Part shown: positions 11,628 through 24,786 of the stretch, piece after piece
Layout: each line of letters begins with the position of its first letter
Position numbering within the stretch: the stretch's first letter is position 1
Origin: Thomasclavelia saccharogumia DSM 17460
GTDB lineage: Bacteria > Bacillota_I > Bacilli_A > Erysipelotrichales > Coprobacillaceae
Direction: 5' to 3'
Length of the DNA: 38,311 nt
Assembly: GCF_000686665.1 (NCBI RefSeq)
Contig: NZ_JMLH01000028.1
Coordinates: 1-38,311, forward strand
Program-made: the position numbers and the translations under genes
The notes under the pieces: model-generated
Databases searched by the model: none
Seen by the model: the letters and a program-made list of their open reading frames with translations, nothing else
Told to the model about the DNA's origin: nothing

Positions 11628-13112
11628 TTATTTCCCTTCCTTTAACCATTTTTGATATTGGCGATTGGCTTCATCAACTATTTTTTGCATTCCAGCATCA
11701 TCAAGCTCTTCATTTAAACCTTTTAAAAAAGTATCTAAATCATATATTTTATTTGTCCATTCACTATCTGTCAAAGTATTAAAGTATGCTGATAGTATAT
11801 CATTTGTTGTTGCAATTTCCGCAATTACAGGATCAGCATCAAACCTAAAACCCTTAGGAAAATTATCGCCATATGTTGAATAAAACCAATTTGAGTAAGC
11901 AACTTTATCATCTTCTTCATAAATAGAAGAATAAGTAATTTTTGGATTTGTATACTGATATCCTGATATTCGTAAACCAAGACTTGATGTAGTTACTGTA
12001 ATACGATTATTTTCATCAAGTTCATAATCCTGTCCTTCAGTTCCATATTGAATTAAATTAGCTATATCTTTATCTGTAAATAATTTTAAAAGAAAATCTT
12101 TTGCATTTTCAACATTTTCTGACCAAGATGCAATTGCTGTTTTATTATCGCCCCAATATAATTCCATATCTGGTATAGATCCATCTGGCACTACGATATA
12201 ATCTTTTGATGATTCTGATAAATATGTAAATTTATCATATCTGCTGATACTTTTTTCAGGTAACTTAACAAATGGGACAACACTCTCATCATCGTCTAAA
12301 TTTATTAGATCCTGCTGTTTTAAAGAAAGCCACTGATTCAATACATCTTTATACTCTTTTGATTTACTTAATGAAATAAATCCTTCATCTTTTTTCCATG
12401 CTAAATTATTTGTTGGAGGAACTGTCCATAGTCCTGTCTTTCCAACACTAAAGCCCATCTCTTTAACAGGTTTTTCGTTAGTTTCTTTTTTTACTTTATT
12501 CAATAAATCGATATTATCAAATAAATTACTTTCAATATTTTCGGGATTTATTCCATATTCATCTAAGATCTCTTTTTGATACATAATGCCAAATGTAGAA
12601 GGAACATTACTTGAGATTCCATATAATTTGTTATCTATTTTTGATAATTCAAAATCATAATCAGTTAAAAATTTTTCTAAAACCTTCCCATTTTCCTCTT
12701 TCCAGTCATCTAAATCCATAAGTAATTCATTGTCAACCGCACATTTATATGTATTATTCCATTCTGTTAATTTATCTCCTTCTACTTTTGGAAGTATTGT
12801 TATAACATCTGTTTGTTGTCTACTTTTTTTAAGTTCTGTTAACTCCACAATCTGATTATTCTCTCCATTATTACTAAAAGGAATAATTTTTACTTGATAC
12901 TGCACCCCTTTTTCTTTTAATAATTCATTAAGGGGCTTTTCCCAAATTTCAATCATTTCAGCTGTCATCTCTTTATAATTACCAATAGCAGCAATTCTCC
13001 AAACAACAGTTTTAGTATCAATATTTGTCTTTTTTGTACATCCCATTATTTGAAAACATAATACAAAACTTAAAAATATTAATATTTTCTTCATTCTATT
13101 TCTCTTTGTCAT
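11628..13112 (-). CDS. Extracellular solute-binding-protein-like lipoprotein, copy 1
   Basis: A 494-residue lipoprotein (lipobox FQIMGC, Cys25) with the fold pattern of family 1 ABC solute-binding proteins: KTVVWRIAAIGNYKEM, a central KLYGISSNVPSTFGIMYQKE, and C-terminal WSENVENAKDFLLKLFTDKD, the motif that follows hinge helices in sugar-binding members. No sugar permease gene is nearby, so a classical import role is doubtful. The ATG at 13112 has AAGGG upstream; an earlier TTG at 13133 has no site. A close paralogue lies at 15874-17394. Upstream in the same direction are a 2-TM protein and thioredoxin remnant, downstream the coupled lipoprotein. Confidence 0.75.
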   Translation of the reverse strand: MTKRNRMKKILIFLSFVLCFQIMGCTKKTNIDTKTVVWRIAAIGNYKEMTAEMIEIWEKPLNELLKEKGVQYQVKIIPFSNNGENNQIVELTELKKSRQQTDVITILPKVEGDKLTEWNNTYKCAVDNELLMDLDDWKEENGKVLEKFLTDYDFELSKIDNKLYGISSNVPSTFGIMYQKEILDEYGINPENIESNLFDNIDLLNKVKKETNEKPVKEMGFSVGKTGLWTVPPTNNLAWKKDEGFISLSKSKEYKDVLNQWLSLKQQDLINLDDDESVVPFVKLPEKSISRYDKFTYLSESSKDYIVVPDGSIPDMELYWGDNKTAIASWSENVENAKDFLLKLFTDKDIANLIQYGTEGQDYELDENNRITVTTSSLGLRISGYQYTNPKITYSSIYEEDDKVAYSNWFYSTYGDNFPKGFRFDADPVIAEIATTNDILSAYFNTLTDSEWTNKIYDLDTFLKGLNEELDDAGMQKIVDEANRQYQKWLKEGK

Positions 13113-13163
13113 AATCGTATTTCCCTTTTTCAAATTATTTTTAAAAACTTAATTAATATTAAA

Positions 13164-13941: not shown

Positions 13942-14306
13942 TTGATGCCTCAAATTCATATTTGATTACTTTCTTATCATTTCTTTAATTTATTTTCCCT
14001 CCTTACCTATCTGATGAAATTAAAACTATTTAACGTTACCATAACTTATTTACATAATAAACAGAAGCATCATTTCTTTTAGCTGCTTTTCTTACCTTTA
14101 CTATAACATAATAAATAATGATATTGTTCATTTCCCCATTTAATGGTTTGATATCCAATCGAACGGTCGTAATTTTTAAAAATTATCTTATTAATATGAT
14201 TTATATTGATTTAAAAATAACTGATAAAATGCTTAAAATAAAAACTAATTAGATATCTAGCATAATATTTGATACTAAATGAGAAACAATTAAAAATTTT
14301 ATTTTA
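13942..14306. repeat. Long direct repeat, copy 1 (promoter P1 + LytTR fragment)
   Basis: About 365 bp closely matching 15301-15664 by eye, with only scattered differences. From left to right it holds a leader with an AAGGAGG site, promoter P1, and on the plus strand a short piece of the LytTR gene (ATTTAAAAATAACTGATAAA aligns with 21247 onward). The rest of the regulator is deleted. It is a duplication scar from the head region of the locus around 20.5-21.4 kb. Confidence 0.8.
14100..14167 (-). promoter_or_regulatory. LytTR-type promoter P1
   Basis: On the minus strand ACCGTT (14162-14167) and ACCATT (14142-14147) form a direct repeat of 20-bp period, then 36 bp, then the -10 box TATAGT (14100-14105) inside TTATAGTAAAG. 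There is no good -35 element, as expected for an activator-dependent promoter. It drives unit A. Confidence 0.7.
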
Positions 14307-14309
14307 TTA

Positions 14310-15006: not shown

Positions 15007-15252
15007 TTATAATGGCACTACTTTATATTCCCAATATCCAGTATTACAAGGTCCTGAATGTCTTGGCTCACACCCTGGAATATAACCCTGAATAAATCTA
15101 CCAGTCAGCTCATAACGTGCCTTTGGTTTTGCTGATGTTCCTAACATTTTTAAAACAACTCTACTTTGCAACAACATTAATAGGGGTGTTAGTAATGATC
15201 AATGAACATCTAGTGAGTAAACAGCTAATACTTGAGATATGTGTTTTAACAT
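15007..15252 (-). pseudogene. Second secreted Cys-motif precursor, unit B, frameshifted
   Basis: Starting at an ATG at 15250-15252, MLKHISQVLAVYSL, then in a second frame SLIITNTPINVVAK, and in a third MLGTSAKPKARYELTGRF, IQGYIPGCEPRHSGPC and NTGYWEYKVVPL to the stop. Joined, this gives about 80 residues: a signal peptide ending near VVAK and a mature part of about 45. GYIPGCEPRHS is identical to the 177-residue precursor at 18817. The last frame alone (15007-15177) is open and could encode 56 residues without a signal. Two indels inactivate export. Confidence 0.6.
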
Positions 15253-15300: not shown

Positions 15301-15664
15301 TTGATACTTCAAATTCATATTTGATTACTTTCTTATCATTTCTTTAATTTATTTTCCCTCCTTACCTATCTGATGAAATTAAAACTATTTAACGTTACCA
15401 TAACTTATTCATATAATAAACAGAAGCATCATTTCTTTTAGCTGCTTTTCTTACTTTACTATAACATAATAAATAAAGATATTGTTCATTTCCCCATTTA
15501 ATGGTTTGATATCCAATCGAACGGTCATAACTTTTAAAAATCATCTTATTAATATGATTTATATTGATTTAAAAATAACTGGTGAAATGCTTGAAATAAA
15601 AACTGATTAGATATTTATCATAATATTTGATACTAAATGAGAGACAATTAAAAATTTTATTTTA
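15301..15664. repeat. Long direct repeat, copy 2 (promoter P2 + LytTR fragment)
   Basis: Near-identical partner of 13942-14306. Its LytTR fragment (plus strand, about 15558-15664) keeps GGTGAAATGCTTGAAATAAA, identical to the true regulator gene at 21262 onward, but has no start and has internal deletions. It ends where the truncated lipoprotein gene of unit C begins. Confidence 0.8.
15458..15525 (-). promoter_or_regulatory. LytTR-type promoter P2
   Basis: ACCGTT (15520-15525), ACCATT (15500-15505), 36 bp, TATAGT (15458-15463), all on the minus strand. Same layout as P1, facing unit B. Confidence 0.7.
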
Positions 15665-15872
15665 ATTCTGCTTCCATTTTATAATTAGCTTTACTGCATA
15701 CAACTTTCATAATCAAAAAAATATAAATAACCACTATTCTTTGTATGATAAAAGCCATCTTTCATTGAAAATTCTAATGTTCCAAACTGTTCATATATAT
15801 TTGTACTACAGCCACCTATAAAAACAATGCTCAAGACCATAAAAATGATGATTTTTTTAATTTATGCTACAT
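15664..15872 (-). pseudogene. Lipoprotein N-terminal fragment, unit C
   Basis: Follows the second solute-binding-protein gene just as the intact lipoprotein follows copy 1. The signal region, a Cys-Ser/Thr-like lipobox area and FGTLEFS-like, YLYFFDYES-like segments are recognisable. The start codon is followed by TAG and the gene is cut after about 68 codons by the LytTR repeat. Not functional. Confidence 0.6.
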
Positions 15873-15873
15873 C

Positions 15874-17394
15874 TTATTCAGCTTCTTTTAACCACTCCTG
15901 GTATTGGTGATTGGCTTCATCAACTATCTTTTGCATTCCGGCTTTATCTAATTCTCTATTCATATCTTTTAAGAATATATCTAGATCTTTTATTTCTAAT
16001 TTAGCTATTTTATTCATCCATTCACTTTCTTGAAATTCATCAATGAAATCTCCTGTCATTATTTTATTAGTAGCATTAATTTCATTTAAAACTGGAATTG
16101 GATCAAATCTGAAGCCTTTAGGAAAATTATCACCATATGTTGAATAAAACCAGTTAGAGTAACTGACTTTATCATCTTCTTCAAAATCTGAAGAATAAGT
16201 GATTTTAGGGTTTGTAAACTGATATCCAAATATAGCTAATCCACTGTTTTTAGTAGTTACAGTAATATGATTGTCTTCATCAAGGGTGTAATCCTGATCC
16301 TTAATACCATATTGAATAAGATTTGCAATATCCTTATCTGTAAATAATTTCAAAAGAAAATCTTCGGCATTTTCAACATTTTCTGACCAAGATGCAATTG
16401 ACGTTTTATTATCTCCCCAATACAATTCCATATTTGGTGTAGATTGATTAGGGATAATAACAAAATCATCTTTTGTCTCTGGCATAGAGCGAGAAGCCAT
16501 ATTGACTTCAAATGGATCTCGTTTACTCATTGTGGATGCTGTAACAAAAGGAACAACGCCGTTTTTAGAAAGATCCTGATCAAGCAAACCCTGCTGTTTT
16601 AATGACGAATAATTAGCTAATAAATTTTTATACTCCGTTGATCGACTCAAAGAAATAAAACCTTCACCTTTTTTCCATGCCAAATTATTTGTTGGGGGTA
16701 CGACCCATAAGCCTGTCACACTAGTATCAAATCCTATAAATTGAATTGGAATATTCCCATTATTTTTCTTTGCCTGTATCAACAATTCATTATTATCAAA
16801 TATATTCCCCTTAATATCTTCTATATTAATTCCGTATTCATCTAACATCTTTTTATTATACATAAAACCATTAGTAGTAGGAACATGACTTGAAATGCCA
16901 TATAACTTATTATCAATTTTTGAGAGTTCAAAATCATAGGGCACTAATACTTTTTCTAATATTTCTTTATTTTTTTCTTTCCATTCATCTAAATTCATAA
17001 GCAGTTTATTATCAACTGTACATTTATATGTATTATTCCAAGGCTCCACTTCCGTATCGTTATAAGATGCAAAGATCATTGATACAAGATCGGTTTGTTT
17101 ACCATCTTTTTTTAATTCCTTTAATTCATTTATTTTATTATCTGTTTCTTGAGTATTAAAAGTCATGATTTTAACTTGATAAGCTGCTCCCTTTTCCTTT
17201 AATAATTCATTAAGAGGTTCCTCCCATGTTTCAATTAATCCATCACCTAAAGAAGCCATACTACCAGGATCTTCAATCCTCCATACGACCGTTTTCTTAT
17301 CTATATTATCTGTTCTTGTATTATTATTTTGTGTACAAGCTGTTATTTGCAGGCACAATAATAAAGTTAAAATAAATAGTAATCGTTTCCTCAT
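15874..17394 (-). CDS. Extracellular solute-binding-protein-like lipoprotein, copy 2
   Basis: A 506-residue paralogue of the 11628-13112 protein. Lipobox LQITAC with Cys20; KTVVWRIEDPGSMASLGDG at the mature N terminus; shared blocks include NKLYGISSHVPTT, PPTNNLAWKKGEGFISLSRS, ELYWGDNKTSIASWSENVEN and YSNWFYSTYGDNFPKGFRFD. AAAGGGAGG precedes the ATG. The two copies are very similar at the C terminus and more different around residues 25-90 and 290-320, where ligand specificity might lie. Its partner lipoprotein is truncated, and an IS1595 remnant separates it from the rest of unit C. Confidence 0.75.
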   Translation of the reverse strand: MRKRLLFILTLLLCLQITACTQNNNTRTDNIDKKTVVWRIEDPGSMASLGDGLIETWEEPLNELLKEKGAAYQVKIMTFNTQETDNKINELKELKKDGKQTDLVSMIFASYNDTEVEPWNNTYKCTVDNKLLMNLDEWKEKNKEILEKVLVPYDFELSKIDNKLYGISSHVPTTNGFMYNKKMLDEYGINIEDIKGNIFDNNELLIQAKKNNGNIPIQFIGFDTSVTGLWVVPPTNNLAWKKGEGFISLSRSTEYKNLLANYSSLKQQGLLDQDLSKNGVVPFVTASTMSKRDPFEVNMASRSMPETKDDFVIIPNQSTPNMELYWGDNKTSIASWSENVENAEDFLLKLFTDKDIANLIQYGIKDQDYTLDEDNHITVTTKNSGLAIFGYQFTNPKITYSSDFEEDDKVSYSNWFYSTYGDNFPKGFRFDPIPVLNEINATNKIMTGDFIDEFQESEWMNKIAKLEIKDLDIFLKDMNRELDKAGMQKIVDEANHQYQEWLKEAE

Positions 17395-18816: not shown

Positions 18817-19350
18817 TTATGCTATTTTTGTATAAGTTGTTCTAAAGCATCCTTCTGAATGTCTTGGCTCACATCCTGGAATATATCCACGAGTAACCTG
18901 CCATGTTCCAGTATATTTTTTGCCATTATACATATACCATCCATTAACTAACTCTAACCCAATATATCTAGCTATGCTTGCACAACTATACCCTGTTAAA
19001 GCTTCAATAACATCACATACACCTAATGAAAATTTATAAGTGCCTCTTCCTGATGAAGCTAAAGGTACAATTCCATTTTCATTCATCTGTGCGGTCATTA
19101 AATTAATATCTCTTTCTTCAACTTCTTTATATAATTGTTCCAATAAAGCAGGATCAGCATCTTTTAAGACAAGAGTAAATTCAATTAGTTCACCATTTTC
19201 ATCATAAACTGGATCAATCATTTCAGTTTCATATTGATGTCTAAACTCTTTTGCTTCTACTGGTATACTAAATCCAAACATTCCAATAACCATAGCAACA
19301 GCAACTAATAAAATTACAAAAGATTGATATAGCTTTAAATAACTTCTCAT
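18817..19350 (-). CDS. Secreted cysteine-containing precursor with GYIPGCEPRHS motif (putative bacteriocin or signal protein)
   Basis: A 177-residue exported protein. Residues 1-33 form a Sec-type signal (basic start, hydrophobic core FVILLVAVAMVIGMFGFSIP, cleavage after VEA). An acidic, helix-prone segment (about 34-90) resembles a propeptide. After LASSGRG (98-104) comes a mature-like part with four cysteines (C112, C123, C160, C168), enough for two disulfides, ending with GYIPGCEPRHSEGC. The strong AAGGAGG site and intact frame argue for expression. It lies downstream of the thioredoxin-like lipoprotein and the 2-TM gene under promoter P3. The motif recurs in the decayed gene at 15007-15252. 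I do not recognise the family. A bacteriocin is the leading guess, with a secreted signal or surface protein as alternatives. Confidence 0.7.
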   Translation of the reverse strand: MRSYLKLYQSFVILLVAVAMVIGMFGFSIPVEAKEFRHQYETEMIDPVYDENGELIEFTLVLKDADPALLEQLYKEVEERDINLMTAQMNENGIVPLASSGRGTYKFSLGVCDVIEALTGYSCASIARYIGLELVNGWYMYNGKKYTGTWQVTRGYIPGCEPRHSEGCFRTTYTKIA

Positions 19351-19426: not shown

Positions 19427-19689
19427 TTAAATTAAGCCAAATAATTCAATAGCCCCATATATTGAAGAAACAATATAAAGTATAGCCACTAATGGGTAAA
19501 ATATTTTTTTGTCTTTGAAAAATCATCTTCCATATAGCACATATAAAATAATCTTTCTATAAAAAACAGTAAACTAAAACAAATAAATGTTATTCTATTT
19601 CTTTCCTGAAAGAAATAGGGAATTAATATAATATAGATAAATGCTATTTTTTTAAATTTATGAAATTTTAAATAATTTTCTTTTTTCAT
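19427..19689 (-). pseudogene. Small 2-TM protein, unit C copy, C terminus frameshifted in a 7-A tract
   Basis: Begins two bases after the thioredoxin gene stop, with AAAGGA inside that gene's end. The first frame (to 19489) gives MKKENYLKFHKFKKIAFIYI and the conserved FFQERNRITFICFSLLFFIE, then stops after DDFSKTKKYFTH. Across a 7-base tract (T7 on the plus strand, 19504-19510) the other frame continues KIFYPLVAILYIVSSIYGAI and ELFGLI, matching the C terminus of the unit A copy. Eight bases would give the full length of about 87 residues. The 66-residue truncated form may still be made. Function unknown; immunity or accessory role inferred from position. Confidence 0.6.
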
Positions 19690-19691
19690 TA

Positions 19692-20144
19692 CTATTTTTC
19701 CTTTAAAAAGTCTTTTAATTCACTGGATAATTCTTCTATCTCTTGATCATAGTTCGATGGAAACCTAGAAACCTCATCTCCATTTTTAGTTTTTATAATC
19801 GTTGGAGTTACCCTAACATTATATCTAATGCATATTTCTTGGAGTTCTTCGCTTGTATAAATTTTATTATCTAACATTTTCTTTATATCAAAATAATACA
19901 CTTTATCATCATATTTTTTTATTTCTTCTTTGACTAAAGGATATATTTCTAAACATAACGGACAATCTGTCATTGAAAAATATACATATCCATTTACTAT
20001 TTTTTCAAGTTCCCCCTTTTCATTTAATTCTATTATTTCATTATCTTTATTTGCCTCATTTTGTTTATTTTGTTTATTTGAATTACAACCAACAACCATC
20101 AGCATCAACAATACTAAAACAAACCAATTTCTTTTAAGTTTCAT
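19692..20144 (-). CDS. Thioredoxin-fold lipoprotein (bacteriocin-accessory thiol oxidoreductase type)
   Basis: A 150-residue lipoprotein with lipobox MVVGC (Cys20), an Asn/Lys-rich linker, and a thioredoxin fold. The active site is DCPLC (C61, C64) after the strand YVYFSMT, with the cis-proline loop RYNVRVTPTIIKTKNGDE. Such proteins (for example those encoded with pediocin-like bacteriocins) form or repair disulfides in exported peptides on the outside of the cell. GGAGGGG lies upstream of the start. It is the first gene behind P3 and is coupled to the 2-TM gene. A partner with four cysteines, the secreted precursor, is the third gene, which supports a folding role. Confidence 0.8.
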   Translation of the reverse strand: MKLKRNWFVLVLLMLMVVGCNSNKQNKQNEANKDNEIIELNEKGELEKIVNGYVYFSMTDCPLCLEIYPLVKEEIKKYDDKVYYFDIKKMLDNKIYTSEELQEICIRYNVRVTPTIIKTKNGDEVSRFPSNYDQEIEELSSELKDFLKEK

Positions 20145-20591: not shown

Positions 20592-20659
20592 ACTATAACA
20601 CAATAAAATAAGCTATTATTGATTTCCCTATTTAATGGTTAAATTTCCCATTAAATGGT
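20592..20659 (-). promoter_or_regulatory. LytTR-type promoter P3
   Basis: On the minus strand ACCATT (20654-20659) and ACCATT (20634-20639), 20-bp period, then 36 bp, then TATAGT (20592-20597) within TTATAGTAAAG. It drives the unit C genes. Confidence 0.72.
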
Positions 20660-20898: not shown

Positions 20899-21564
20899 AT
20901 GATTACTGTGGGAATAATAGATGATGAACAAATATTTTGTGATAAAATAAAAAATATATTATTATTAGAGTTTGATTGTCTTAGAACATTTACATATAAC
21001 TCAATAAATGAAATTGATCAAGATTTTGATTTTATGATCTTGAATATTGATATGCCAGATTATGATGGGATCGATTATGCAAAAGCTAATGAAGATAAAA
21101 AAATAATTTTTGTGACTAGTCATAATCATCGTTATAAAGAAGCATTTGGACCTAATGTCTATGGTTTTGTCAGTAAAAATAATTTAGAAGATGAACTAGT
21201 TGAAAGTGTTGCAAAGATGCTTACAAGAATCAAAAATCAACATCATATTGATTTAAAAATAGATGGTGAAATGCTTGAAATAAAAACTGATAGTATAATC
21301 TATTGTATGTATTTAGGTGATATGAATATTGCGGTAATATTTGATGATAGACAAGCAATAATCAAAAATAAAACTTTAAAAAGTTTATTAAGAGTTTTGG
21401 GAAATGATTTTATTTGTATTAATCGTAGCGTGATCATTAATAAAAAGAAGATTTTAAAAATATTTAATAATCAGCTTTGTTTAAAAGAAGTTAATTGTTT
21501 GTTTGAAATCAGTCGTCGTAAAAAGAGTTTAGTATTAAAAGCTTTTTATGAAAAAAACTTTTAA
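20899..21564 (+). CDS. LytTR-family response regulator with Asn at the phospho-acceptor position
   Basis: A 221-residue regulator: receiver domain (about 1-112) followed by a LytTR DNA-binding domain (about 116-215; IDLKIDGEMLEIKTDSIIYC, FICINRSVIINKKKILKI). The receiver keeps the acidic pair in GIIDDEQ and the switch lysine in GFVSKNN, but the strand that normally reads LDI has ILNIDMP, so Asn49 replaces the Asp that accepts phosphate. No histidine kinase gene is nearby. It probably activates the four ACCRTT promoters, one of which (P4) starts two bases after its own stop codon. Activity may depend on protein level or a bound partner rather than phosphorylation. Confidence 0.85.
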   Translation: MITVGIIDDEQIFCDKIKNILLLEFDCLRTFTYNSINEIDQDFDFMILNIDMPDYDGIDYAKANEDKKIIFVTSHNHRYKEAFGPNVYGFVSKNNLEDELVESVAKMLTRIKNQHHIDLKIDGEMLEIKTDSIIYCMYLGDMNIAVIFDDRQAIIKNKTLKSLLRVLGNDFICINRSVIINKKKILKIFNNQLCLKEVNCLFEISRRKKSLVLKAFYEKNF

Positions 21565-21565
21565 T

Positions 21566-21633
21566 ACCGTTTAATTGGATATCTAACCATTAAAAGGGAA
21601 AACTAATAATTTTTCCTTTTTTTATGCTATAGT
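21566..21633 (+). promoter_or_regulatory. LytTR-type promoter P4 of the ABC transporter genes
   Basis: ACCGTT (21566-21571) and ACCATT (21586-21591), 20-bp period, 36 bp, then TATAGT (21628-21633), 32 bp before the ATPase start. Its inner part (TTGGATATC) is shared with P1 and P2, although it faces the other way. Confidence 0.75.
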
Positions 21634-21665: not shown

Positions 21666-22541
21666 ATGAAATTAGAAATCCAACAGCTGACAAAATCATA
21701 TGGCAGTTTATTAGCTCTAAATGACATCAATCTCACTCTGACCCCAGGAATTTATGCTCTACTAGGATCTAATGGTGCTGGTAAGTCGACCCTTATTAAT
21801 TTATTAACTGGCAATTTAAAACCAAATAAAGGAAAGATCTTATATAATGGTAAAAATATTAATGATTTAAAAAAAGATTATCGAGCTATTTTAGGTTATA
21901 TGCCTCAGCAGCAGGAATTATATGAACAATTTAATGCCTATCGGTTTTTAAATTATATGGCTGCTTTAAAGGGGATGGATGCTAAAACAGCTAAGATAGA
22001 AATCGAAAATGTTTTAAAAATAGTAAATTTACAGGATGATGCGCATCGTCTTTTAGGACAATATTCAGGTGGAATGAAGCAAAGAATCCTTATTGCCCAG
22101 GCAATCATGAATCAACCCAAAATCATCATTTTAGATGAACCTACAGCTGGGCTTGATCCTAAAGAACGGATTCGAATCAGAAATATTATTTCTAAAATAG
22201 CAAGAGAAAAAATCGTTTTATTTGCTACACATGTAGTATCTGATATTGAACATATCGCTAAAGAAGTCATTCTTATAAAAAACGGCAAACTGTTAGACCA
22301 TTGCTCACCATTAGAATTTTGTAAAACTATCCAAGGAAAAGTCTTTGAGTTATCGATTCAGGAAGAGGAATTAAAAAAAGTACAAGGTGAATTTCTTATC
22401 AGCAATATTTCACAACAGGCAAATGGTTTATTAGTACGGATTTTAGCGAATCAAAAACCTCTTCAATATCAATATATTGAAGCTGTTGCAAATCTTGAAG
22501 ATGTCTATTTATATTATTTCAGTGATGAAATGAAGGACTAA
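21666..22541 (+). CDS. ABC transporter ATP-binding protein
   Basis: A 291-residue ATPase with Walker A GSNGAGKST, Q-loop region YMPQQQELYEQ, signature YSGGMKQRILIAQA, Walker B IIILDEPTAGLDP and H-loop ATHVVSD. It is of the type that pairs with ABC-2 permeases for peptide, antibiotic or bacteriocin export and immunity. GGAGG precedes the start. The permease follows after four bases. It is controlled by P4 together with the precursor units, which suggests transport of, or protection against, the secreted peptide. Confidence 0.9.
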   Translation: MKLEIQQLTKSYGSLLALNDINLTLTPGIYALLGSNGAGKSTLINLLTGNLKPNKGKILYNGKNINDLKKDYRAILGYMPQQQELYEQFNAYRFLNYMAALKGMDAKTAKIEIENVLKIVNLQDDAHRLLGQYSGGMKQRILIAQAIMNQPKIIILDEPTAGLDPKERIRIRNIISKIAREKIVLFATHVVSDIEHIAKEVILIKNGKLLDHCSPLEFCKTIQGKVFELSIQEEELKKVQGEFLISNISQQANGLLVRILANQKPLQYQYIEAVANLEDVYLYYFSDEMKD

Positions 22542-22545
22542 TATA

Positions 22546-24786
22546 ATGTCAATATTTTTGCAAGAATTCTATAAAATCTTTAAAAATAAAACATGTATCC
22601 TGATACTTATTATTGCCCTTTTATTAAATATCGGTCTATTATTAGCAACTAATCCTAATAAATATTATAGTAGTGCTGCTTATCAAAAAAGCTACAATAA
22701 AATCAGTAGTTTAAATGATGAACAAAAAGGTGAATATATTGATGAATATTATCAAGCTGTGATGTCTAATAATATTGATAATTATAAATATACGAATAGT
22801 TTTATGGGAGAAATGGAACTATTTAATAACTATCGTAATCAATGGAAAACATTAACTTCTTATCCTGAACTACGCATTGCAATAAAACAAAGTGCTCAAG
22901 AATCAAAAATAGCTATTTTTAAAAATCAAAGTGATTTTCAAAAAAGGGATGCCAGCAAAACCATAAATGATTATCAGTCATTAGATGATGTAAAACTAAC
23001 TTTTACTAATGTTAAAGCATTTGAAAATATTATCGATTTTATTCCTACTGATCTTTTAGCACTGATATTTATTTTCTTTATTATCAGTACCCTTCTCATC
23101 TATGAAAAAGAACACCAGCTTTTCTTTTTATTAAAATCCACTAAAGAAGGGCGAACCGGCTTGATTCGTGCTAAAACTTCTGTCATTCTCTTTACAACGA
23201 TTTTAACAGTATTATTATTTTGGGGCAGCAATATCTTTATAAATTACTTAAAATATGGTTCCATTCCTTTATCAGTAAGTATTCAATCAATTACTAGTTT
23301 CACAACTTCTACATTAGCTATTTCATCTGGACAATACTTACTTATATTCTTTTTATCAAAAATATGTATTTACTCATTATTAGCAATGATATTTTTATTC
23401 ATAACATTAATATCAAAAAGAACGATTGAAATATATATTTTAACTATTCTTTTATTAGGCTTAGCGCTTACTTTCTATTTAGCAATACCCGCCAGTTCAA
23501 ACTTCAGCCTTTTAAAACATATCAATATTATTCCTTATCTCCTTGTCAATCCCATCTATCAAAATTATTTAAATCTTAATATTCTCAGTTATCCTATTAA
23601 TATTATAAATATCTTTTGGTTTATTACGATCATCTTATTGTTGTTATTTATATTTTTAAATATCTATTTATTTTCTAAAAATAAAACTGCCGATACTTTA
23701 AAATCATTTCATTTAAATAGAAAAAAAAGATTCAAAACAAATGTAAGTATCTTTTACCATGAATGTTATAAATTATTTATCATCCAAAAAGGACTTATCA
23801 TATTAGTGCTATTTAGTATTGCTGTTTCATGGTTTACAATCAATCTAAACTATGATGTCACAACTGATGAATATTATTATCAAAATTATATGAAGATATT
23901 AGAAGGTCCCTATGATCAAGAAAAACAAAAAATCATTGAAAAAGAAACACTTCGTTTTGAAGAACTCCATCAACAAAACTTGCAGGCTGAAAATGATTTT
24001 CAGTCTGGTAAAATCTCAGAAAACGAAAAAAATGCAATTACCAACTACATTTCAGGTCAACTAATTAGTGAACATGCTTTTCAAAAAGTTTTAGAACGTG
24101 TAGATTATATAGTGAAACATCCCAACTACCCAATTATTTATGAAACTGGATATTTAGAATTATTTGCTAAAAGCTATACTGGCTATAAAACAGATTTTAC
24201 TTTAAGTTTATTTTTAACTCTAACTATTATTATTCTATTTACCCCATTGATTGCAAATGAATATTCTTCAGGCATGATACAGCTGATCAATGTCCAAAAA
24301 AGCGGCCAAAAAGAAGTATTTAAAGAAAAATGGAAAGTATGTTTTATTATTACGACCTTATGCACTTTTATTACCTATATTCCACAATTATTTATCCTCT
24401 TACAACGTTACGGTTTAACTTATCTATTTACCTCTAATCAAGCCATTCCTGAATTAGCCAAAACAAATTTTTCTATGCCCCTAATTTGTCAAATTATTTT
24501 ACTTTATGGCTTAAGATTATCTATGGCTTATATCACAGCAAGATTTACTTTTATAATTTCTCAAATACTAAAAAACACTTATCTTGCTTTATTATTACTT
24601 TGCAGTATCTTTGTTTTACCTCTAGGAATTGGAATCATTGATATTTCATTTATAAATTATATATCTTTAAATAGTTTATTTTCTGGAAATTTTATTATCA
24701 ATGAATTTTCTTTCTTCTATATAGTTATCTTATTTATTATTGTATTTATTATTTTATATAAAGGCAAAAAACGAAATCTATTTTAA
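22546..24786 (+). CDS. Large ABC-2-type permease, two fused halves
   Basis: A 746-residue membrane protein made of two similar halves. Each begins with a short cytosolic stretch and a helix (ILILIIALLLNIGLLLATN; LIILVLFSIAVSWFTI), then a Lys/Gln-rich extracellular region of 100-140 residues, then a bundle of about five helices. The second half contains the ABC-2 motif LFTPLIANEYSSGMIQLI. A single chain could thus form a complete permease with the ATPase dimer. Long extracellular domains are typical of transporters that handle peptides at the membrane surface, including bacteriocin exporters and self-protection systems. No peptidase domain for leader removal is present, so the Sec-type signal of the precursor fits an immunity role better than export. 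Confidence 0.8.
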   Translation: MSIFLQEFYKIFKNKTCILILIIALLLNIGLLLATNPNKYYSSAAYQKSYNKISSLNDEQKGEYIDEYYQAVMSNNIDNYKYTNSFMGEMELFNNYRNQWKTLTSYPELRIAIKQSAQESKIAIFKNQSDFQKRDASKTINDYQSLDDVKLTFTNVKAFENIIDFIPTDLLALIFIFFIISTLLIYEKEHQLFFLLKSTKEGRTGLIRAKTSVILFTTILTVLLFWGSNIFINYLKYGSIPLSVSIQSITSFTTSTLAISSGQYLLIFFLSKICIYSLLAMIFLFITLISKRTIEIYILTILLLGLALTFYLAIPASSNFSLLKHINIIPYLLVNPIYQNYLNLNILSYPINIINIFWFITIILLLLFIFLNIYLFSKNKTADTLKSFHLNRKKRFKTNVSIFYHECYKLFIIQKGLIILVLFSIAVSWFTINLNYDVTTDEYYYQNYMKILEGPYDQEKQKIIEKETLRFEELHQQNLQAENDFQSGKISENEKNAITNYISGQLISEHAFQKVLERVDYIVKHPNYPIIYETGYLELFAKSYTGYKTDFTLSLFLTLTIIILFTPLIANEYSSGMIQLINVQKSGQKEVFKEKWKVCFIITTLCTFITYIPQLFILLQRYGLTYLFTSNQAIPELAKTNFSMPLICQIILLYGLRLSMAYITARFTFIISQILKNTYLALLLLCSIFVLPLGIGIIDISFINYISLNSLFSGNFIINEFSFFYIVILFIIVFIILYKGKKRNLF

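Follow-up and report, generated by a model that had tools for sequence, protein, structure and literature searches.

Aspartate-less receivers are common, and their control is largely open. A LytTR regulator gene of Thomasclavelia saccharogumia DSM 17460 raises this question in a defined setting: what governs a response regulator that carries Asn where the phospho-acceptor Asp is expected and has no kinase gene beside it? The gene lies in a 38,311-nt stretch of DNA that we analysed as a whole (the window). A first-pass annotation of the same DNA had proposed control without phosphorylation, by protein level, ligand or partner, or a locked conformation.

The acceptor position of the receiver

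The regulator and its parts are as follows.

20899..21564, + strand: response regulator, 221 aa (ORF, Pfam, alignment, AlphaFold2 model)
Residues ~1-112 and ~113-221 of this regulator: receiver domain and LytTR DNA-binding domain, respectively
21043-21045, + strand: codon 49, AAT (Asn); GAT or GAC (Asp) in paralogues

The start codon is preceded by a good ribosome-binding site, and both domains exceeded the curated Pfam cut-offs: Response_reg (PF00072) at residues 5-104 (E 3.9e-9; 37.1 bits vs a cut-off of 30.2) and LytTR (PF04397) at residues 125-212 (E 2.2e-6; 28.2 bits vs 22.6). The first-pass annotation had matched the strand ILNIDMP to LDI(D/x)MP, with Asn49 in place of the acceptor Asp, and had called for an alignment to establish the identity of the column. 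Alignment with ~50 relatives set FMILNIDMP against LLDIDMP regulators and placed Asn49 in the phospho-acceptor column, confirming the substitution. Asp51 falls at the variable x position (ILN-I-DMP vs LLD-I-DMP), where D, E, N, G, T or other residues occur. An AlphaFold2 model built from a 25-sequence alignment (mean pLDDT 90.2, pTM 0.59) reproduced the canonical geometry, in which N49 closes beta3 (45-49), T73 closes beta4 (69-73) and K93 follows beta5 (87-92), with Asp51 in the loop after beta3. The variable column and the loop position together rule out Asp51 as the true acceptor.

The acidic pair (D8/D9) and switch Lys (K93) are present, as had been reported, along with the Y/T coupling pair T73/F90, and the alignment shows strong conservation of the part of the receiver near the dimer surface. 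In a Foldseek search, the best match of the regulator was full-length ComE (4cbv, E 2.7e-13), and its LytTR domain resembled AgrA (TM 0.8). A receiver recognised by profile (PF00072) with a non-Asp acceptor, located by alignment and model, places the protein, by sequence, among the aspartate-less receivers (ALRs). The substitution had been called unusual. It is a minority type, but Asn is the second commonest acceptor substitution among ALRs (16%; PMC4395418) and about five acceptor losses were found among 44 related genes; by its frequency, the regulator therefore belongs to an already known kind.

Distribution of Asn49 and of partner kinases

Orthologues keeping Asn, which the first-pass annotation had proposed to look for, were found within a genus set of nine genomes (Thomasclavelia group). 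Three other species-level genomes carry them, at 67-95% identity: a MAG (L014/L001, 78%), T. cocleata (L015/L002, 67%) and VE202-01 (L022/L004, 95%). The VE202-01 copy is frameshifted at ~codon 129, likely an assembly error because the neighbouring ABC and SBP genes are also broken there. All three intact window-type genes use AAT. Since orthologues in other genomes carry it, Asn49 is neither confined to this strain nor a product of base calling, and sequencing error is ruled out as its source.

Maximum-likelihood analysis of 44 relatives gave a tree that groups the four Asn genes with one Ser gene in a single clade (support 99/98), nested among Asp genes. The tree shows a single Asp-to-Asn change at the acceptor, dating to the common ancestor of a clade that four species-level genomes carry. 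Parsimony placed about five Asp losses in the whole tree, never beside a kinase. The others gave Asn in L031 and L044/L052, and Glu in L010/L034/L037 and L027; the acidic pair is also altered in L031, L010, L034, L037, L044 and L052, and unaltered in L027.

Pairwise dN/dS of the window gene was 0.17 (YN00) to 0.23 (NG86) against L062 and 0.14 to 0.23 against L063, values (~0.14-0.23) by which the regulator gene is estimated to be under purifying selection. The receiver and the DNA-binding domain each gave 0.18-0.26, and the receiver is therefore maintained though its usual phosphorylation site is gone. In the alignment, the orthologue L063 has Ala in place of the coupling-pair Thr, a hint that the phosphate chemistry may be drifting.

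The reported lack of an adjacent kinase gene held up: by ORF list and Pfam, there is none anywhere close to the regulator within the 38,311-nt window. Sister species show an arrangement like that of AgrA/AgrC/AgrB quorum-sensing modules: a HATPase_c_5 kinase directly follows the closest Asp-bearing homologue (G002, G003 and G007, the G007 kinase being split over two contigs) and, in G003, AgrB precedes it. In G005, a similar gene begins after the Asp homologue and is truncated where the contig ends. Compared with such modules, the window regulator lacks the kinase, the peptide processing gene and the acceptor Asp. When the G003 kinase, of the ancestral partner type, was used as query, G000, G001, G006 and G008 yielded no orthologue; the one match in G000 (C26, 30% identical) lies beside its own regulator, and G004 had just two distant matches (30% and 29%). 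The cognate histidine kinase of a two-component system was thus found neither next to the regulator nor, as an orthologue of the sister-species kinase, elsewhere in its genome.

We also considered whether a spare agr-type kinase could act in trans. Each of the four strong HATPase_c_5 genes of the genome lies near a LytTR gene of its own, adjoining it at C32, C26 and C5 and ~3 kb away at C33, which rules out such a spare among the strong matches, though weaker HATPase matches also occur. A kinase from another family may act on the regulator in trans.

In the five genomes that hold the kinase-less clade, the Asp paralogues (C2 in T. saccharogumia) likewise have no kinase next to them, and because of this, kinase loss probably preceded acceptor loss in the lineage. 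Across the genus, a kinase adjoins 0 of 11 acceptor-less genes vs 10 of 17 assessable Asp genes (Fisher test, p 0.0016, relatedness ignored). Among phylogenetically independent pairs, ~4 of 5 pointed in the same direction and 0 against, at a sample size for which significance is unreachable. The same kinase-loss pattern was seen when acceptor-less L044/L052 were compared with their kinase-bearing relatives L040/L041.

Predicted target promoters and neighbouring genes

The regulator is flanked by two operons, each behind a direct repeat, and the window also holds two decayed copies of the regulator promoter.

21666..22541, + strand: ABC transporter ATP-binding protein, probable target (Pfam/NCBIfam)
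22546..24786, + strand: membrane protein of 746 aa, probably the ABC permease partner (ORF; no family match)
19692..20144, - strand: thioredoxin-like lipoprotein; best NCBIfam match PedC/BrcD bacteriocin disulfide isomerase
19489..19689, - strand: 66-aa putative membrane protein (ORF)
18817..19350, - strand: 177-aa secreted precursor-like protein, candidate bacteriocin, C-terminal GYIPGCEPRHSEGCF (ORF)
21566..21594, + strand: LytTR direct repeat ACCGTTTAA-11-ACCATTAAA, oriented towards the ABC transporter operon
21628-21633, + strand: TATAGT of the extended -10 TGCTATAGT, downstream of the 21566-21594 repeat
20631..20659, - strand: LytTR direct repeat ACCATTTAA-11-ACCATTAAA, oriented towards the divergent bacteriocin-like operon
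20597-20592, - strand: TATAGT of the extended -10 TGTTATAGT, downstream of the 20631-20659 repeat
14086..14307, unstranded: decayed copy of the promoter and a portion of the gene of the regulator; its box, 14139-14167 (-), is intact
15444..15665, unstranded: second decayed copy of the same promoter and part of the gene; its box, 15497-15525 (-), is intact

Both repeats flanking the regulator have a 20-bp period. The pattern ACCRTTNRA-N11-ACCRTTNRA had 34 exact matches in the nine genomes vs 0 for a reversed control; 33 lie in the five genomes holding the kinase-less clade and one, isolated, in G003, with no exact match in G002, G005 or G007. Most sites read with their flanks (26 of 33 distinct sites) are followed by TGNTATA[AG]T, with the TATA hexamer starting 32-34 nt after the box; the chance level of this motif is ~0.011 per 60-nt stretch. 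Direct repeats upstream of the -10 of neighbouring promoters are the arrangement of AgrA/ComE-type LytTR regulators, and the predicted boxes have it. From this box-to-promoter geometry, we infer that the regulator is an activator. The second half-site differs by subtype, being mostly ACCATTAAA beside N/S regulators and ACCGTTAGA beside Asp regulators; this difference suggests that the two have separate regulons. No box was found that reads into the regulator gene itself. Unlinked boxes at C14 (T. saccharogumia), C118 (G004) and C128 (G006) precede genes for related CEPRHS-motif peptides.

The description of the gene as a bacteriocin-type regulator is plausible, although the homology behind it is weak: the thioredoxin-like lipoprotein scored 26 bits against the PedC/BrcD bacteriocin maturation family (NCBIfam cut-off 120), and the 177-aa protein, with its signal peptide-like start and Cys-containing C-terminus, matched no family in Pfam or NCBIfam. 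A literature search found nothing specific on Thomasclavelia bacteriocins. As read from these genes, the bacteriocin context is at most suggestive. The 746-aa membrane protein is conserved beside the ATPase in the L062 and L063 loci.

Several further features of the locus were observed. Identity between the regulator and its G006 orthologue L062 is only 78%, and the adjoining ABC ATPase, thioredoxin-like and 177-aa proteins are 97-98% identical, a gap that suggests rapid divergence or replacement of the regulator gene. Scattered relatives of the 177-aa precursor, sharing a CEPRHSG motif, occur at 15007-15177 of the window, L077 8136-8387 and L085 849-1379; they are truncated in the window and C14 and longer, apparently intact (176 aa), in G006 C128, and a LytTR box precedes the copies at C14 and C128. 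Two related lipoproteins (11628-13133 and 15874-17394) resemble solute-binding proteins, with DUF3502 in the one scanned, and were apparently duplicated within the locus. The decayed copies at 14086-14307 and 15444-15665 are ~95% alike, a sign of repeated duplication.

Probable control without phosphorylation and its alternatives

The reading that we favour, with a probability of roughly 0.6, is that the gene encodes an orphan aspartate-less LytTR activator of the AgrA/ComE type that works without phosphorylation. The regulator would dimerise through its conserved receiver and, with residue 49 unphosphorylated, activate the ABC transporter and bacteriocin-like promoters; its output would be set mainly by the amount made and possibly tuned by a ligand or partner. 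That part of the first-pass proposal which dispenses with phosphate is well supported, if indirectly, by the fixed Asn, the missing kinase, purifying selection and the retained target boxes; among level, ligand, partner and a locked state, sequence does not discriminate. As a counterpoint, D8, D9, T73 and K93 are all kept, more than phosphate-free working strictly needs, an objection that the loss of Thr in L063 weakens.

Two characterised regulators offer precedents. The ALR archetype, RitR of Streptococcus pneumoniae, is likewise an orphan with Asn at the acceptor position (Asn53), mutation of which had no effect on DNA binding (PMC4395418). The acidic pair of RitR is altered (Lys10) and its output domain is of another kind, whereas the window regulator has D8/D9 intact and a LytTR output; the Y/T coupling residues are mostly kept across the ALR class, as they are here (PMC4395418). 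Streptococcal ComE (4cbv; PMC12323615) shares the architecture of receiver plus LytTR domain and controls bacteriocin. Natural ComE keeps its Asp and has a kinase, ComD, but it works without phosphorylation when the Asp is replaced, and S. mutans ComE D60A still activates its own bacteriocin promoter (PMC12323615).

It is unlikely, in our estimate, that the Asn form is instead locked inactive and damps an Asp paralogue, either through competition for boxes or by pairing with it in mixed dimers. A suitable partner exists in the same genome (C2:17389-18048; 53% identical, with near-identical boxes), and the conserved dimer surface would serve such pairing. The half-sites, however, differ between the N/S and Asp subtypes, and the box is placed where an activator would sit.

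Control by a ligand or membrane partner, as in the LytTR Regulatory Systems (LRS), or with the transporter as sensor, seems rather improbable. HdrRM and BrsRM are kinase-less systems with bacteriocin gene targets and direct repeats upstream of an extended -10, and the S. mutans HdrR promoter matches the window promoter in layout, a direct repeat upstream of an identical TGCTATAGT (PMC6193735). Small membrane proteins and an ABC permease adjoin the window regulator as well. LRS regulators, though, have no receiver and are encoded together with a membrane inhibitor in an operon that regulates itself (PMC6193735); the window regulator has a receiver and no box reading into its own gene, and so falls outside this class.

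Decay into a non-functional duplicate is a poor explanation: other copies have indeed decayed (C107, and 14086-14307 and 15444-15665 in the window), but this one has an intact frame and intact boxes, dN/dS is ~0.2 for each domain, and two species have orthologues that are intact. Least probable is deamidation of Asn49 to Asp in the retained active site, making the protein phosphorylatable after synthesis, for although the window protein retains the acidic pair, Thr and Lys, and Asn-to-Asp reversion in a receiver has been reported (cited in PMC4395418), no partner kinase was found, Thr is lost in L063 and a sister copy has Ser at the acceptor.

Of greater interest than the single proposed phosphate-free activator is the recurrence, within one bacterial family, of kinase loss coupled to acceptor loss. 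Tentatively, and with somewhat less than even confidence, we propose that agr-type LytTR regulators of gut Erysipelotrichales have repeatedly taken one irreversible route: genes for the kinase and the signalling peptide disappear, the regulator keeps its place next to secreted-peptide and ABC-transporter genes, and its acceptor Asp then changes to Asn, Ser or Glu, giving phosphate-free activator families with diverged boxes of their own. One genus holds the Asn form, kinase-less Asp paralogues, kinase-bearing Asp homologues and recognisable target boxes, and therefore provides a natural series in which to ask whether the kinase is lost before the acceptor and what role a leftover receiver plays.

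A second kinase-less group was also observed in the genus (L080 314-958, on C12 of the T. saccharogumia genome; L089; L090), with a Glu acceptor and an altered acidic pair. Asp relatives of the Glu-acceptor group, L025 and L026, have an adjoining kinase.
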